DNA of 64,000 bases from Macrocystis pyrifera (GCA_031763025.1 JASSKH010000007.1:3897930-3961929); one strand, 5' to 3'. Shown: positions 43,601 to 45,225, counted from the stretch's first letter. The notes: generated by a model from the letters alone, not told the origin. Translations and numbers: made by a program.

Positions 43601-45225
43601 TGAGGGTTTTGTCTCTTCCTTGCTCGCTCGCGCCCTCCTTCCCTCCCTCTCGTTTCTCTCTCCTGTTTTTCGTTCCCTCCTCCTTGCTCCCTCCCTCCCT
43701 CCCTCCCTCCCCCTCCATCCCTCCCCCCCCCCCTTCCATCTTGATGAATGTGATAGTACTAAAGCTAGAATATGCAGGAGAAGTATGGGAAGGGAACGCG
43801 AAACTCGTAAAACAGTTGGAAACAGTACAAATGACAGCAGCTAAAACAATCCTAAGATGCTCAAGTACGACTAGTAATGCAGTATTAAGAGCAGAACTGG
43901 GAATGCGCCCACTCAAGACAAATAGAGACATGAGAAAGTTGAACTCGCAATATAAAGTAAGGAACATGCCAAAAAAGAGGTTGCCAGCCATACTTGATAG
44001 AGCTGTATGGGAGAAAGTATCAAAAGGACGAGCTGGAATAAGGTGGGATGGCGTAGTTGAGAAATTATGGAAGGATCTAGGGGGAAACCAAGTAGAGATG
44101 ATGTCCGCCAGGAAGTTTGGGAGGTACAAGGCAGAAGTAGAAGAAAGGATAGAAAGAAGGGAAAGGCTAACGCTAAGAAACAAGGTGGAATCGGAAAAAC
44201 ACTTAGAGATATACGGGGGATTGAGGGAAGGAATAGGAATGAACACGTATTTGCATGGCCCAATGGACTTCGCGAAAACGCTGAAACTGCGCTTTCGTGT
44301 AGGGGACCTGGACCTGCCAGAAAGAAGAAAGAGGTACACCAGTAGCCGGGAAGAGGAAGTAGGCGCACAGATGTGCCCGTGTGACAAAGCAATAGAGAGT
44401 AGAACTCACATAGTAGGAGAATGTGAAATATACAAGGAGGAACGGGATGTGTTAGAAGAGGAGATGAGGAAAATAGACGAATGTGACATGGAGGAGTTTG
44501 ATACAATGAATAGCAGCGAGAAAACGATCGCTATCCTAGGAGATAGATGGTGGCCACAGGAGGCCAAACAGGAAGGGGATAAGATTAGCAAAAAGTTTCT
44601 ATGTAATTTATGGAAACAACGTAATGAGCGCCCAATTGTTGGAGGTGTCTCTATTAGGAGTAGGAACGGTGCTCCGTCTCGAAAGGGATGCGTGGTCAAT
44701 GGTCAAATGACTAAGGCAAGCAACAAATGAGTACGCCCCCCCCCCCCCCTTCCCTCTCCCCCTTCCCCATGAATGTGTGAACTTGTGGCGATGGTGATGG
44801 TTGCATACTACGCATATTTGCGGTGCGGTGCAGTGCGGTGCGATGCTAGATGCTGACGATCCTCCTGTTTACTACCGTGCATGTTTTGAGGGCGGGAGTG
44901 GGGGGGGGGAGAGAGAAAAGCTGCCACCCCCCCCCCCCCCCCGCCCTCTCCTTTGTTACCGTTTTGTTGGTGTCGAAACTTCTTTGCATCGGTTTGCGTG
45001 TCACCGAGTCGCCCGTTAGAGCCATCATCTGACCATCAACCCCACCGCGTGCCCCCCCCTTCCTCCCCTCAATTTTTTGTTTTGCCATGCTCGCGTTGCG
45101 GGTGTGTCAAGATTAACGGCGAGCGTAAGATGTATACAAACGCCGAGTGGTACGAGCTGATCTACCCCACCAACGAAGACTTGCCGTACATGTACGATCA
45201 GTACAAGTGGGAGCACTGTGCGTGA
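17908..45225 (+). CDS. Tyrosinase-like type-3 copper protein, ten joined exons, 5' incomplete, frameshifted
   Basis: Join of 17908-18030, 19592-19667, 34766-34867, 35707-35834, 37366-37467, 38102-38467, 40476-40582, 41951-42071, 43358-43526 and 45112-45225, giving about 468 residues after allowing for one extra base. Tyrosinases oxidise phenols with a dinuclear copper centre. Seen directly: a start-domain pattern VRRELRALL, the copper-A region CDHWHDDAG then THHVGYT and LPYW-like IPYWEYT, the copper-B pair HGPVH, and DPIFW followed out of frame by VVHPSSDR. All exon phases agree, which is strong support. Borders are GT-AG. Missing: the first exon or exons, where such proteins usually carry a signal peptide. 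The extra G at 42001-42004 shifts the frame and creates TGA at 43424-43426, so as written this is a pseudogene or a sequencing error. The match to algal tyrosinases is recalled, not searched. Confidence 0.8.
18038..18143. mobile_element. TA-MITE copy 2, just inside intron 1
   Basis: Ends TTACGGGAGACC and GGACCCCCGGAA, TA at 18036-18037 and 18144-18145. It starts 7 bases after the 5' splice site of exon 1, so the intron begins with GTGATTA and then the hairpin-forming element. Confidence 0.8.
18160..18855 (+). repeat. TCTCAGTCTCATTTGTCAG minisatellite in intron 1
   Basis: Degenerate tandem units of about 10-20 bases built from TCTCAG, TCATTT and GTCAG cover 18160-18560 and resume at 18640-18855. 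The strand is almost free of purine runs. The Ser/Phe-rich frames here are made of the repeat. Confidence 0.7.
19054..19158. mobile_element. TA-MITE copy 3, intron 1
   Basis: Ends TTACAGGGGTCCATAGTTAA and TTAACTATGGACCCCCGTGA, with TA at 19052-19053 and 19159-19160. About 105 bp and palindromic. Confidence 0.85.
19592..19667 (+). CDS. Tyrosinase-like exon 2 (copper A, first part)
   Basis: 25 codons plus one base: [14 protein letters not shown] then [11 protein letters not shown]. Acceptor TTTTCGCCAG, donor GCTG^GTGAGG, phase 1 out. H-W-H lies in the copper-A ligand region. The last base combines with GT of exon 3 to give Gly, reading HDDAGIMTHH across the junction. Preceded by a C-rich tract (19400-19530). 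Confidence 0.8.
20165..20400 (+). repeat. Family D repeat, copy 5 (intron 2)
   Basis: Contains CTTCTCGCGATAAAAAATG (20241), GATCCCTGGATCTGAG-like core (20310) and GGAGGGAGAGAGAAAAGG (20339). Confidence 0.65.
20634..20870 (+). mobile_element. Two stacked LINE-B 3' fragments
   Basis: 20634-20777 runs from TATGTAATAACATGG through GCCCAAATGTTGGAGGTGTC to AACACATGAATAC and a C-run. 20797-20870 repeats CCGTCTCGAAAGGGTGG to AGCAACAAATGAGTATCC and a C-run. Both keep the poly(C) end and lack the 5' part. Confidence 0.75.
20945..21042 (+). repeat. Family A fragment (intron 2)
   Basis: GTGCTCCGTCCCAGCATTG through GTCTATGGTCATACGACG to ATATCGAGTACCCC, then a C-run. 5'-truncated and not preceded by a long C-run. 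Confidence 0.65.
21043..21700. other. Unclassified sequence in intron 2
   Basis: No gene or shared repeat recognised. A 127-codon reverse frame (21590-21207) has no domain. Confidence 0.3.
21700..22805 (+). mobile_element. LINE-B long copy, part 1 (ORF1-like and endonuclease N-terminus)
   Basis: 5' part of the interrupted LINE-B. 21766-22330 encodes broken, Lys/Arg/Glu-rich frames, as expected of an ORF1 or linker. From about 22335 the sequence reads GSWNVRG then TVGIQEWW and [10 protein letters not shown], the opening motifs of an apurinic-type endonuclease/exonuclease/phosphatase (EEP) domain. These are spread over frames because of frameshifts. It is interrupted by a MITE at 22556-22660 and then by LINE-C at about 22806. 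The 5' end is approximate. Confidence 0.65.
22556..22660. mobile_element. TA-MITE copy 4, inside the LINE-B endonuclease
   Basis: TTACGGGGGTCCATAGTTAA to ACTATAGACCCCCGTAA with TA at both sides. Deleting it with one TA gives a continuous frame (GSVGFL then VKEYLYG), so the LINE-B copy was in frame here when the MITE arrived. Confidence 0.9.
22806..26325 (+). pseudogene. LINE-C (RTE-like) non-LTR retrotransposon, degenerate
   Basis: Encodes, over broken frames, an EEP endonuclease (VATYNVRTL at about 22899, VVAYAPT at about 23310, then IDYILTR at about 23643) and a reverse transcriptase: [28 protein letters not shown] (motif A, about 24899), [14 protein letters not shown] (motif B) and GMLYADDAG (motif C, about 25265). 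The C-terminal portion runs from 25768 to 26325 in one open frame. Stops and shifts occur at several places (for example TGA after DRELL, and between 25020 and 25040). A 101-bp block around the YADD codons is tandemly duplicated. It is inserted in LINE-B, and both lie in tyrosinase intron 2. RTE-like assignment rests on general resemblance. Confidence 0.8.
23200..23304. mobile_element. TA-MITE copy 5, inside the LINE-C endonuclease
   Basis: TTACGGGGGACCATAGTTAA to ACTATGGACCCCCGTAA, TA at 23198-23199 and 23305-23306. Removing it with one TA gives AVNLVVAYAPT in frame. The motif is the conserved Y-A-P strand of EEP domains. Confidence 0.9.
26308..26745 (-). repeat. Family A copy, near full length, at the LINE-C 3' end
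   Basis: In the element orientation it begins at the T-run (26745-26729), passes GGCGGTCGCCCACAGCTG, AACCTTTACTTTGCGC, GGCACCCAAGAGGCAG, GGTTCTTAGTACGATGCAG and GGTCATGCATGAGATCGAG. It ends with the long 3' variant TACATCTCTCCTATCGGG and a C-run that overlaps the last LINE-C codons. It carries the recurring short frame (26548-26222). The opposite reading, a SINE with a 3' A-run, is possible but does not fit the truncation pattern. Confidence 0.75.
26746..27419. other. Unclassified, pyrimidine-rich in its second half
   Basis: 27030-27200 is CTTCC/TTCCC-rich on the + strand. A good acceptor-like signal, CTTCCTCTGTCTCACAG, ends at about 27407, but the tyrosinase exons 2 and 3 join in phase without anything from here. 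It may be the remainder of an inserted element. Confidence 0.3.
27420..28866 (+). mobile_element. LINE-B long copy, part 2 (endonuclease C-terminus to RT start)
   Basis: Broken frames read [24 protein letters not shown] (the G-D-x-N-x-R-I-G strand, with V in place of F), [17 protein letters not shown] and [11 protein letters not shown] (the D-x-x-x-x-H region of EEP, about 27850-27880). Then comes a linker with [12 protein letters not shown] (28180), and the beginning of [20 protein letters not shown] (28667) and [15 protein letters not shown] ending at 28866. A stop (TAG) precedes KGDK. Confidence 0.75.
28867..30539. repeat. Dense field of TAACA/TGTTA motifs
   Basis: Motifs such as GTAACA, CATAACAC, GTGTTAC and TAACGTTA recur in both orientations every 15-40 bases, in otherwise dissimilar sequence. 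Within a TIR transposon such motifs could be subterminal transposase-binding repeats, here extended across the interior. Confidence 0.7.
29189..29293. mobile_element. TA-MITE copy 6, inside the TIR transposon
   Basis: TTACGGGGGTCCATAGTTAA to TTAACTATGGACCCCCGTAA with TA at 29187-29188 and 29294-29295. Palindromic, about 105 bp. Confidence 0.9.
30540..31803. mobile_element. 1.26-kb foldback element nested in the TIR transposon
   Basis: Left end TAAGGCCGTTTCCTGT and right end ACAGGAAACAGCCTTA begin inverted repeats of about 45 bp that include GAGCTTCAGATTT. A second pair of inverted arms of about 170 bp lies inside (31222-31390 against 31560-31728; shared GGAGTCAGTTGAAAAAG, GAGCTTTTGCCCCGGAA and CTCCAAGATCTATC). 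31104-31183 is a further tight hairpin. The part at 30650-31010 is richer in G and C. No transposase seen. Confidence 0.7.
31981..34000 (+). mobile_element. LINE-B long copy, part 3 (RT, C-terminus and poly(C) tail)
   Basis: Continues the [29 protein letters not shown], motif A split by a MITE ([13 protein letters not shown]), motif [15 protein letters not shown] (about 32440) and motif [11 protein letters not shown] (about 32573). Afterwards come frames homologous to the 43744-44730 copy, including [11 protein letters not shown] and the knuckle [18 protein letters not shown] (about 33622). The end is CAACAAATGAGTAA and a C-run to 34000. Several frameshifts and stops make it inactive. Less conserved than the copies at 1521 and 43744, so older. 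Confidence 0.8.
32178..32283. mobile_element. TA-MITE copy 7, inside LINE-B RT motif A
   Basis: TTGCGGGGGGGCATAGTAAA to TTGCTATGGTCCCCCGTAA, TA on the left and mutated TG on the right. Removing it gives [13 protein letters not shown] in frame, with the catalytic D of motif A at the junction. Confidence 0.9.
34001..34189 (+). mobile_element. LINE-B 3' fragment stacked on the long copy, 44-nt C tail
   Basis: Starts AGTTTCTATGTAATATATGG directly after the C-run of the preceding LINE-B and ends GCAACAAATGAGTACGCTA, then C from 34146 to 34189. A head-to-tail stack of two truncated copies. Confidence 0.85.
34565..34635 (+). repeat. Family A 3' fragment with 39-nt C-run, near the end of intron 2
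   Basis: CGTTACGGTCATGCATGACATGGG, shown here only as a 30-bp remnant, then C from 34597 to 34635. It is inserted in a C-rich stretch about 130 bases upstream of the exon 3 acceptor. Confidence 0.65.
34766..34867 (+). CDS. Tyrosinase-like exon 3 (copper A, second part)
   Basis: GT + 33 codons + [15 protein letters not shown] then [15 protein letters not shown]. Acceptor CTCTCTTGTTAG, donor GAAG^GTGTGT. H-H and F-E-Q match the helix that carries copper-A histidines, and P-Y-W is the family's most conserved tripeptide. Lies 15.1 kb downstream of exon 2. Confidence 0.85.
34880..35706 (+). repeat. Intron 3: TTTTGT-rich then three short repeats then CCACCCA tract
   Basis: 34900-35110 is TTTTG-rich. 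Units with TTTGTAC(A/G)(C/T)CAT(C/G)GAAGGCA recur at about 35230, 35306 and 35380 (period about 75). 35515-35706 is C-rich with CCCACCCAC units up to the acceptor. Confidence 0.6.
35707..35834 (+). CDS. Tyrosinase-like exon 4
   Basis: CC + 42 codons: [13 protein letters not shown], then [12 protein letters not shown] and RFAFLPIEK. Acceptor AACAAACCCACCAG, donor AAG^GTGCGC. Phase 1 in, 0 out. D-N-W-F-G is a recurrent landmark after the P-Y-W strand in algal homologues, where the substrate loop lies. Confidence 0.8.
36010..37365 (+). repeat. Intron 4: CTCGGAA units then 800-bp CCTTTCACCC satellite
   Basis: TCTCGGGAA/TTCTCGGAA units lie at 35970-36030. From about 36430 to 37250 the sense strand is a degenerate tandem of 10-15-base units such as CCTTCACC, TTCACCCTT and CCCTTGACC. 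All frames inside are repeat artefacts. Confidence 0.75.
37366..37467 (+). CDS. Tyrosinase-like exon 5
   Basis: 34 codons, [14 protein letters not shown] to RHNLTNSE, phase 0 on both sides. Acceptor TTGTATTTCCAG, donor GAG^GTAAGA. The pattern N-x-Y-G-x-L-R-x-P-W-N fits the region between copper A and copper B. Confidence 0.85.
38102..38467 (+). CDS. Tyrosinase-like exon 6 (copper B, first histidines)
   Basis: 122 codons, the largest exon. H-G-P-V-H (in [12 protein letters not shown], residues about 31-40) is the H-x3-H pair of copper B. It has two Cys-rich patches ([18 protein letters not shown]) that probably form disulfides in a secreted protein. It ends [15 protein letters not shown]. Acceptor CCCTGCGTCAG after about 250 bases of C-rich sequence, donor TTG^GTGAGG. 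No stop over 366 bases in a repeat-rich setting supports coding. Confidence 0.85.
38468..39124. other. Intron 6, first part, unclassified
   Basis: T-rich (TTTTTT, TTTGTTTGTC) to about 38710. Nothing recognisable after that until family N begins. Confidence 0.5.
39125..39720 (+). repeat. Family N repeat, copy 2 (intron 6)
   Basis: Same anchor order as at 16960-17670 (GGGAGTAAATTAAAATATTT, TTTCGATATTCTGTGCTG, GTTGAATACTGCTGTACTT) and the same abundance of AGTACTCGCAGTAC-type near-palindromes. Confidence 0.7.
40185..40232 (+). repeat. Family A 3' remnant (intron 6)
   Basis: CATACGACTAAGTCCATGC then ATGACATGGGTACATC and a C-run. Flanked upstream by CCCCGCCCCCACC. 45 bases only. Confidence 0.55.
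40290..40475 (+). repeat. 10-bp minisatellite GTGTCTCGTACC up to the exon 7 acceptor
   Basis: About 17 degenerate units of CGTGCCGTGT / CTCGTACCGTGT run from 40298 to the acceptor CTGTAG at 40470-40475. The splice acceptor is made directly at the end of the array. Confidence 0.8.
40476..40582 (+). CDS. Tyrosinase-like exon 7
   Basis: 35 codons plus two bases: [17 protein letters not shown] then [15 protein letters not shown]. Acceptor GCGCCTGTAG, donor CCGGG^GTGAGG with phase 2 out. Joins in frame to both neighbours. The charged E-D-D-E-V-F-K segment corresponds to the helix before the last copper-B histidine. Confidence 0.8.
40605..40909 (-). repeat. Family A copy (intron 7), stacked behind the next copy
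   Basis: In element orientation it starts TCATGGTAAGGCACCC right at the C-run end of the copy at 40910-41360 and ends CCATGCATGCTATCGAGTAC. The 5' 130 bases are missing. Confidence 0.75.
40910..41360 (-). repeat. Family A copy (intron 7), near full length
   Basis: In element orientation: GGCGGTCGATCACAGCTG, AATCATATCACGTAGTG, GGTTCTTAGTACGATGCAG and GGCCATGCTTAAGATC. It ends with the long 3' variant ATCTCTCCTATCGAGTACA and a 14-base C-run. Confidence 0.8.
41440..41503 (-). repeat. Family A 3' remnant (intron 7)
   Basis: Between two G-runs (41443-41449 and 41493-41500) lies GGCCGTGGTCGTATGACC, the terminal 40 bases of family A in reverse. Confidence 0.5.
41510..41870 (+). repeat. TTGGC pentanucleotide array then TCCTCG array (intron 7)
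   Basis: 41525-41715 is mostly (CTTGG)n/(CCTGG)n. 41715-41770 is CTTGCC-rich. 41780-41870 is (TCCTCG)n. The strand is purine-poor before the exon 8 acceptor. Confidence 0.8.
41951..42071 (+). CDS. Tyrosinase-like exon 8 (last copper-B histidine), frameshifted
   Basis: Reads [18 protein letters not shown] to 42002. It then needs a one-base shift to continue [14 protein letters not shown] and QEPET. The shift falls in GGGG at 42001-42004. D-P-x-F-W-x-x-H is the signature of the third copper-B ligand. Only the shifted reading leaves the exon in phase 2, which matches exon 9. The unshifted reading runs into TGA at 43424. Acceptor GCTTCGCAG, donor AC^GTAAGA. Confidence 0.8.
42403..42507. mobile_element. 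TA-MITE copy 8, degenerate (intron 8)
   Basis: TCTCACGGGGGAACATAG at the left and GATTGGTCCCTCGTAA at the right, followed by TA. The middle is diverged from the other copies. Confidence 0.6.
43080..43310 (+). repeat. CTTCCT/CTCTTT tract (intron 8)
   Basis: Nearly pure pyrimidine on the sense strand (CTTTCTCTTTCTG, CTTCCTCTTCC, CGTCCTCGTCCTCG), ending about 50 bases before the exon 9 acceptor. Confidence 0.8.
43358..43526 (+). CDS. Tyrosinase-like exon 9
   Basis: T + 56 codons: [13 protein letters not shown] then [11 protein letters not shown] and [16 protein letters not shown] C-rich segment ending LPFTVK. Acceptor CGTTTATCTCAG, donor AAG^GTAAAG. Phase 2 in, 0 out. Two or more Cys suggest disulfides. 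In the uncorrected frame TGA lies at 43424-43426. Confidence 0.8.
43735..44750 (+). mobile_element. LINE-B copy inside intron 9, 5'-truncated, open frame
   Basis: Begins at ATCTTGATGAATGTGATAG immediately after a CCCTCC/C-run tract and ends ACAAATGAGTACG with a C-run (44736-44749). It carries a 329-codon open frame (43744-44730): [15 protein letters not shown] and [11 protein letters not shown] (region after the RT palm), then the knuckle [17 protein letters not shown]. The TGA stop is six bases before the tail. Sense orientation to the tyrosinase gene, and nearly identical to 1521-2357. Confidence 0.85.
45112..45225 (+). CDS. Tyrosinase-like exon 10 (last visible)
   Basis: 37 codons and [17 protein letters not shown] then [15 protein letters not shown] and EHCA. 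T-N-A-E-W-Y and Y-x-Y-D-x-x-x-W-x-H-C are the usual C-terminal landmarks of these proteins as I recall them. Acceptor GTGTCAAG is weak. The stop overlaps a strong donor (GC^GTGAGT, 45222-45227), so the gene might continue by splicing into an exon I could not identify. Confidence 0.7.
   Translation: MNGERKMYTNAEWYELIYPTNEDLPYMYDQYKWEHCA

Follow-up and report, generated by a model that had tools for sequence, protein, structure and literature searches.

Does the run of C that follows the long interspersed nuclear element (LINE) at 43738-44735, only five bases behind its stop codon, belong to the element as a tail, or was it already present in the DNA as a target before the element arrived? The copy lies in a stretch of 64,000 nucleotides (nt) from Macrocystis pyrifera (GCA_031763025.1, JASSKH010000007.1:3897930-3961929), called the window throughout, and belongs to a family here named LINE-B, which was followed through the 537-Mb genome; whole-genome pattern counts refer to that genome, and L-numbers such as L089 denote loci taken from it. 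At least 150 EsV-1-7 motifs, which are typical of brown algae, were counted in it, against 0 in 14 control genomes, and indicate a brown-algal origin. From the 5' flanks, the target-site duplications and the empty sites of the L073 insertion, it is concluded that LINE-B inserts into C-tracts and duplicates them, and a probability of about 80% is assigned to the reading that it is an endonuclease-bearing non-long-terminal-repeat (non-LTR) retrotransposon which does so and usually leaves extra Cs on the 3' side.

The copy at 43738-44735, on the plus strand, ends in CAAATGAGTACG and then C14 (together 44724-44749), with the stop codon TGA at 44728-44730 and five bases, GTACG, as its entire 3' untranslated region (UTR). 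Other LINE-B ends in the window adjoin runs of C91 (written as G, 1430-1520), C13 (33988-34000) and C44 (34146-34189), and the C18 at 20760-20777 adjoins a variant end, CACATGAATA. Across the genome, exact CAAATGAGTA followed by C10 occurs at 616 + 593 = 1209 places, the reversed-pattern control at none. With up to two mismatches, a 24-mer of the 3' coding end is found at 4516 + 4592 = 9108 places, and a 42-mer spanning GAGTACG and seven Cs at 4648.

A tail-blind sample of 44 copies was chosen by an exact 24-mer on contigs C125 to C127:1447211, not by tail; 18 earlier places on small contigs were omitted as likely duplicates, and the sample leans to young copies because all members have the exact 24-mer. 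Behind the end of open reading frame 2 (ORF2), AAATGAGTAC(G), a C-run of at least six was present within 40 nt in 44/44 copies and one of at least ten in 36/44. Runs of at least six A within the same distance were found in 0/44, and runs of G and of T in one copy each, so the poly(A) tail of an L1-like LINE was not seen at these ends. One additional copy at C127:1379175 (L038), with C29 behind it and no C-run before it, stands outside these counts; including it gives 45/45 runs on the 3' side and 22/28 on the 5' side. The C-run is a real, genome-wide 3' feature of LINE-B. The preliminary description had placed the stop codon TGA 4-10 bases before a run of 10 to 91 Cs at every preserved end: the stop and its spacing are confirmed, the runs it cited are present and the feature is family-wide, but "every copy" goes too far, as the LINE-B end at 1168 continues into GAGTACGCTCCCACTCCCACC without a C-run and at 20856 the element is followed by TCCT and no more than C8. 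The tabulation of tail bases that it proposed yields C in 44/44 copies and A in none, but much of the run so tabulated can be duplicated target.

Much of the C-run can be duplicated target, and for this reason it is not purely a tail. The 5' flank is readable only for truncated copies, in which C-runs were scored over the last 40 nt before the element. Among the truncated tail-blind copies, a same-strand upstream C-run of at least six was found in 22/27 and one of at least five in 24/27, while 17/44 copies went unscored because they ran beyond the fetched stretch or had less than 46 nt of flank. The background, random 40-mers from the window and the long loci, contains a C-run of at least six in 3.7% of cases (binomial p about 2e-27 for 22/27), in a pool that includes loci chosen for LINE-B, and G-runs of at least five were present in 0/27 of the 5' flanks. 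A second set of 32 copies, found mostly by their C10, had a 5' C-run of at least six in 19/32 and no G-runs. This set omits 17 loci (nine segmental duplicates, and L001-L008, which repeat later loci in shorter form), as well as L031 and L035, which have no boundary, and L046 and the window copy 20759, which gave no usable match; it includes L009 and L014, which really begin further upstream, as well as the wrongly edged window copy 20856. The 283-nt element obtained by chaining that match (20792-20856) with an earlier piece was a script artefact, and the flank at the correct edge still contains C18.

The duplicated bases stand between the 5' C-run and the element and recur behind the 3' C-run. 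Clear cases are L073 (TTCCACG), L027, L063 (TCCCCGCGG) and two copies in the window, one with TTCC (43734 and 44750) and one with TCCC. In a permutation over 54 copies, the alignment sum of each copy's own pair of flanks reached 287, compared with a mean of 239 and a maximum of 276 among 20,000 permutations (p<=5e-5).

The L073 insertion shows the target before and after the event, since it sits inside a multicopy repeat (L112-L123 and L073). Its two flanks, fused so that the duplication appears once, matched 40 places at 94-99%, 36/40 of them over the full 216 nt, among the 40 of 532 candidates that were scored. Empty sites hold exactly C8 in 11 of the 12 read, the remaining one being CCCCGCCC, and the filled site reads C8TTCCACG before the element and GAGTACG, C13, TTCCACG after it. 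Because the empty sites hold C8 and the filled 3' side C13, the C-tract predates the insertion and five Cs are extra. By its 5' flanks, together with the empty sites at this one insertion, LINE-B is a LINE that targets a simple repeat. The earlier claim that the C-run is a tail therefore gives way to pre-existing C-tracts, read from the 5' flanks, the duplications and the empty sites of one insertion, with extra Cs only on top. Since the C-tract is readable both in its empty and in its filled state, target choice and tail can be separated here.

The extra Cs were followed in 24 pairs of runs, whose median was 11 on the 5' side and 13.5 on the 3' side; the 3' run was longer in 17, shorter in 6 and equal in 1 (Wilcoxon p=0.029, sign test p=0.017). 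Single gains can be large, as in the window copy 1521-2360, with C10 on the 5' side and C91 on the 3' side, and in L085, with C11GTG before the element and C32-A-C63-GTG after it. A tail-like gain of Cs is present on top of the duplicated tract, modest at the median and amounting to tens of bases in single copies.

The coding capacity of the family was read from the long copy L089, which begins with a head, followed by ~127-bp units in tandem (L089:243-868) and by an open frame of 1137 amino acids, in which PF03372 (Exo_endo_phos, 9.6e-11) and RVT_1 (1.6e-29) occur together; a frameshift sets the C-terminal end apart, and the shifted frame runs to the stop. PF03372 in LINEs is presumably an endonuclease of the apurinic/apyrimidinic (APE) type. 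By the endonuclease and reverse transcriptase (RT) predicted in one frame, the 5' truncation and the duplications as an ensemble, LINE-B classifies as an APE-type non-LTR retrotransposon. In phmmer, the RT resembled those of R2 (9.8e-20) and L1 (1.8e-17), values that are similarity scores and not a clade placement.

Truncation at the 5' side is strong: a 5' tag, ATGAAGGTTGGGTC, occurs at 121 places, compared with 9108 3' ends. A 43-mer of the L089 head, made of the last ~21 nt that a non-autonomous partner repeat has in common with it plus LINE-specific bases, occurs at 86 places in the genome, and in at least 52/86 of these, judged from 100 of the 121 tag places, the tag follows downstream on the same strand at a distance of 660-1924 bp, which differs between copies. 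A 5' end at CATGAAGG, where the agreement between L014 and L089 begins, was rejected, as 20/20 further places share sequence upstream of it, L101 for ~70 nt only. Among the copies of the tail-blind sample (L049-L088, L025, L026, L037) that have a boundary, 11/27 are 60-72 nt long and start near GTGCTCCGTC.

The partner repeat is some 400-500 nt long and ends in ATGAGTAC(AC)Cn, a pattern that, exact and with a 4-base gap, occurs at 1597 places in the genome. At its 3' ends, a C-run of at least five was found within 30 nt in 32/50, and runs of A, G or T in 0/50. Aligned locally with the last ~66 nt of LINE-B, the partner scored 66, where the maximum of 2000 mononucleotide shuffles was 40, and three further window copies scored 55, 47 and 57. 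The two repeats also resemble each other at the other end, as L089 34-76, a 5' head of ~43 nt, matches partner copies at 79-93%. A C-run of at least six precedes the partner in 19/41 cases, a count biased by loci mostly chosen for LINE-B tails and by some edges that are internal breaks; in the window alone, a C-run was found in 4/8. The partner appears to land in C-runs as LINE-B does. A poly(T) stretch lies near its front.

An origin of the partner as a short interspersed nuclear element (SINE) derived from tRNA, 5S or 7SL RNA was considered but gained no support within the window. An Rfam search of the window, with E up to 1, returned 14 matches, every one to a microRNA model and none on LINE-B or the partner, although a diverged promoter could escape this search, and ARAGORN found 0 tRNA in the window. 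The 5' head in common with L089, together with the lack of a tRNA, 5S or 7SL match in the window, makes the partner a possible deletion derivative rather than a SINE transcribed by RNA polymerase III. Since this non-autonomous repeat shares the last ~66 nt of LINE-B, that stretch of coding sequence may matter, and the partner is probably mobilised by LINE-B. Copies also lie within one another: LINE-B stands inside LINE-B C-tails at L049 and L101 and inside partner C-tails at L055, L063 and L084, so that L049, L055, L063 and L084 make up 4 of the 27 scored 5' flanks in the C-tails of earlier copies; partner copies were likewise found behind LINE-B tails.

These features can be arranged into a candidate mechanism. 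The endonuclease would nick a C/G tract on its G strand, leaving a G-ended primer, which could pair with 3'-terminal Cs of the RNA, supplied either by read-through of the downstream genomic C-tract or by added Cs; reverse transcription would then begin on a short C template, slip and add Cs. In L1, T-ended primers pair with poly(A). Two C-runs remain after every insertion, by which LINE-B would create further targets for itself and for the partner. Whether LINE-B and the partner form a self-feeding system, in which C-ended RNA, a G-ended primer and lengthening by slippage would make every insertion into two new landing sites, is put forward tentatively, at somewhat below even odds. If it holds, the elements themselves would have generated, and would maintain, most C-tracts of this genome, as a C counterpart of the economy of L1, Alu and poly(A).

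Several observations weigh against insertion into C-tracts with duplication and C-gain. No 5' C-run of at least five was found in 3/27 truncated copies (4/28 with L038). Taken one by one, duplications are often short or imperfect, and few of them score highest of all pairings, so that only the ensemble is clear. Empty sites were read at a single insertion, and a search for those of L058 matched only its own filled site. The C-gain is only nominally significant, and since homopolymer lengths in the assembly are uncertain, its sign is better supported than its size. Any C end of the RNA, as a tail or by read-through, is a prediction from genome sequence. Additionally, the last 66 nt can be folded into a closed structure that begins, at its 5' edge, where copies are often truncated, but no covariation was seen in the pair counts (31/46 ends used: 16/30 LINE, 15/16 partner), and the minimum free energy z was -2.0 and -0.74 in two copies. 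In L089, 66 of 1599 overlapping windows fold at least equally well, and in RNAalifold, run on 46 ends, only the inner helix was retained, at an energy reached by 4/100 column shuffles. A conserved fold as recognition signal was accordingly rejected and remains an idea; RT possibly meets a strong stop at the 60-72-nt truncation point, which for the 66-nt edge is only a suggestion because the pair counts give the fold no support. The earlier proposal that template recognition must work with the terminal coding sequence may keep its general sense, through the ~66 nt common to the partner.

Three other explanations account for parts of these data. If the run were a true poly(C) tail, borne by the RNA or added by RT, with no target preference and with coincidental upstream runs, its presence in 44/44 copies and the 3' runs far above the 5' runs (91 against 10 in 1521-2360, C32-A-C63 against 11 in L085) would be expected, but not a C-run in 22/27 5' flanks against 3.7%, the C8 of the empty sites or the duplicated bases beyond the run; this explanation is very improbable, fails as a full account and persists only in the extra Cs of the preferred one. 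The opposite extreme, in which there is neither tail nor C-gain, the 3' run is duplicated target, and any excess comes from later replication slippage or assembly error, agrees with L079 and L063, where the 3' run falls below the 5' run (13, 7 in both), and with L086 (11 and 11). It is nevertheless unlikely, as later slippage is expected to affect both flanks equally, and the 3' run is longer in 17 pairs and shorter in 6 of 24, with C8 becoming C13 at L073, where 11/12 empty sites hold C8.

A route other than endonuclease-led target-primed reverse transcription (TPRT), such as RT priming at breaks in fragile C/G tracts, draws on the break-prone nature of such tracts and on junctions like that of L068, which have no duplication beyond the C-run. 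The endonuclease domain in the open frame, the fixed orientation of the C-run and the ensemble of duplications make this route improbable. Endonuclease-led insertion into C-tracts, with duplication and usually with extra 3' Cs, is preferred to all three.

Simple-repeat-targeted LINEs, with microsatellites as targets, are known, among them Waldo, Mino, Kibi, Koshi and Dong, and LINE-B is like them in inserting into a simple repeat. L1 combines poly(A), a T-rich target, an APE-kind endonuclease and 5' truncation; LINE-B resembles it in the APE-kind endonuclease, the truncation and a homopolymer target that would be complementary to the RNA 3' end, and differs in having C for A, a putative G-ended primer and a run 5 nt from the stop. 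Pairs of a LINE and a SINE with a common 3' end also exist, and the partner, which has the last ~66 nt of LINE-B and the C-run, is comparable to the SINE of such a pair; it differs in its ~43-nt 5' head of L089 and in having no tRNA, 5S or 7SL match in the window.

The literature offers further parallels. According to the portion of the text consulted, Togen has a (TG)n target and some HERO families have microsatellite specificity, in elements with a restriction-like endonuclease (PMC4640811), whereas LINE-B targets a C homopolymer on the sense strand and carries Exo_endo_phos. In Lepidoptera RTE elements, as far as the consulted sections describe them, the stop codon adjoins a simple-repeat tail, 3' partial elements are numerous, slippage is proposed for lengthening of the repeat, and the repeat lies between two target-site copies and is said to be absent there before insertion (PMC2887409). 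LINE-B shares with them the stop next to a simple repeat (5 nt) and the 3' partial copies, a likeness of layout and not of RT phylogeny, and differs in that its run belongs to the duplicated target; a stop codon abutting a simple-repeat tail was already described there. A C homopolymer as LINE target or tail was not found in the titles and abstract starts of the open-licence literature of PubMed Central (PMC), a search that lay outside Repbase, nor in the consulted parts of PMC4640811, PMC9942856, PMC12809410, PMC4421812, PMC2887409 and PMC12592211, in agreement with the earlier statement that no poly(C)-tailed LINE family had been described. Microsatellite-targeted LINEs and RTEs with the stop next to a repeat are therefore already known, and the C homopolymer as both target and tail appears, within these sources, to be new. 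With ~9,000 3'-end places and at least one insertion with many empty sites, primer-template pairing and slippage in TPRT could become measurable from genome data, and LINE-B offers a possible cause for the C-runs of this genome.

Table 1. LINE-B and partner-repeat features of the window, in window coordinates.
Feature	Position	Strand
5'-truncated LINE-B copy spanning roughly the final 1 kb, with C-terminal coding end, stop and 5-nt 3' UTR GTACG	43738..44735	+
5' target-site copy, C11 TTCC	43723..43737	+
3' C-run, C14, then repeated target TTCC	44736..44753	+
Second LINE-B copy, 97% identity to the 43738-44735 copy	1521..2360	-
3' C-run of the 1521-2360 copy, 91 C on the element strand, then TCCC	1426..1520	-
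5' target-site copy of the 1521-2360 copy, C10 TCCC on the element strand	2361..2374	-
LINE-B copy (88%), then C13 at 33988-34000	33117..33986	+
LINE-B copy of 142 nt directly behind the C13 of the 33117-33986 copy, then C44 at 34146-34189	34001..34142	+
LINE-B match of 65 nt, then TCCT C8; starts 14 nt past the C18 that follows an earlier LINE-B end	20792..20856	+
LINE-B end without a C-run of at least 5 (exception)	1168..1301	-
Non-autonomous partner repeat; head common to L089 at 41390-41432	40944..41432	-
Partner-repeat copy, end TATCGAGTACACCCCC	63594..63963	-
Truncated partner-repeat copy directly behind the C-run of a LINE-B end (9038-9086)	9096..9212	+
Further partner-repeat copy	26333-26744	

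Besides these features, a short repeat of ~110 bp occurs many times in the window (22554-22662, 29187-29295 and others) and in the loci, in both orientations, with a MIR9555 match below the cut-off, and a MIR530 model matches 60865-61032 on both strands, likewise below the cut-off. Among homopolymer runs of at least ten in the window, 29 consist of C or G and 14 of A or T.

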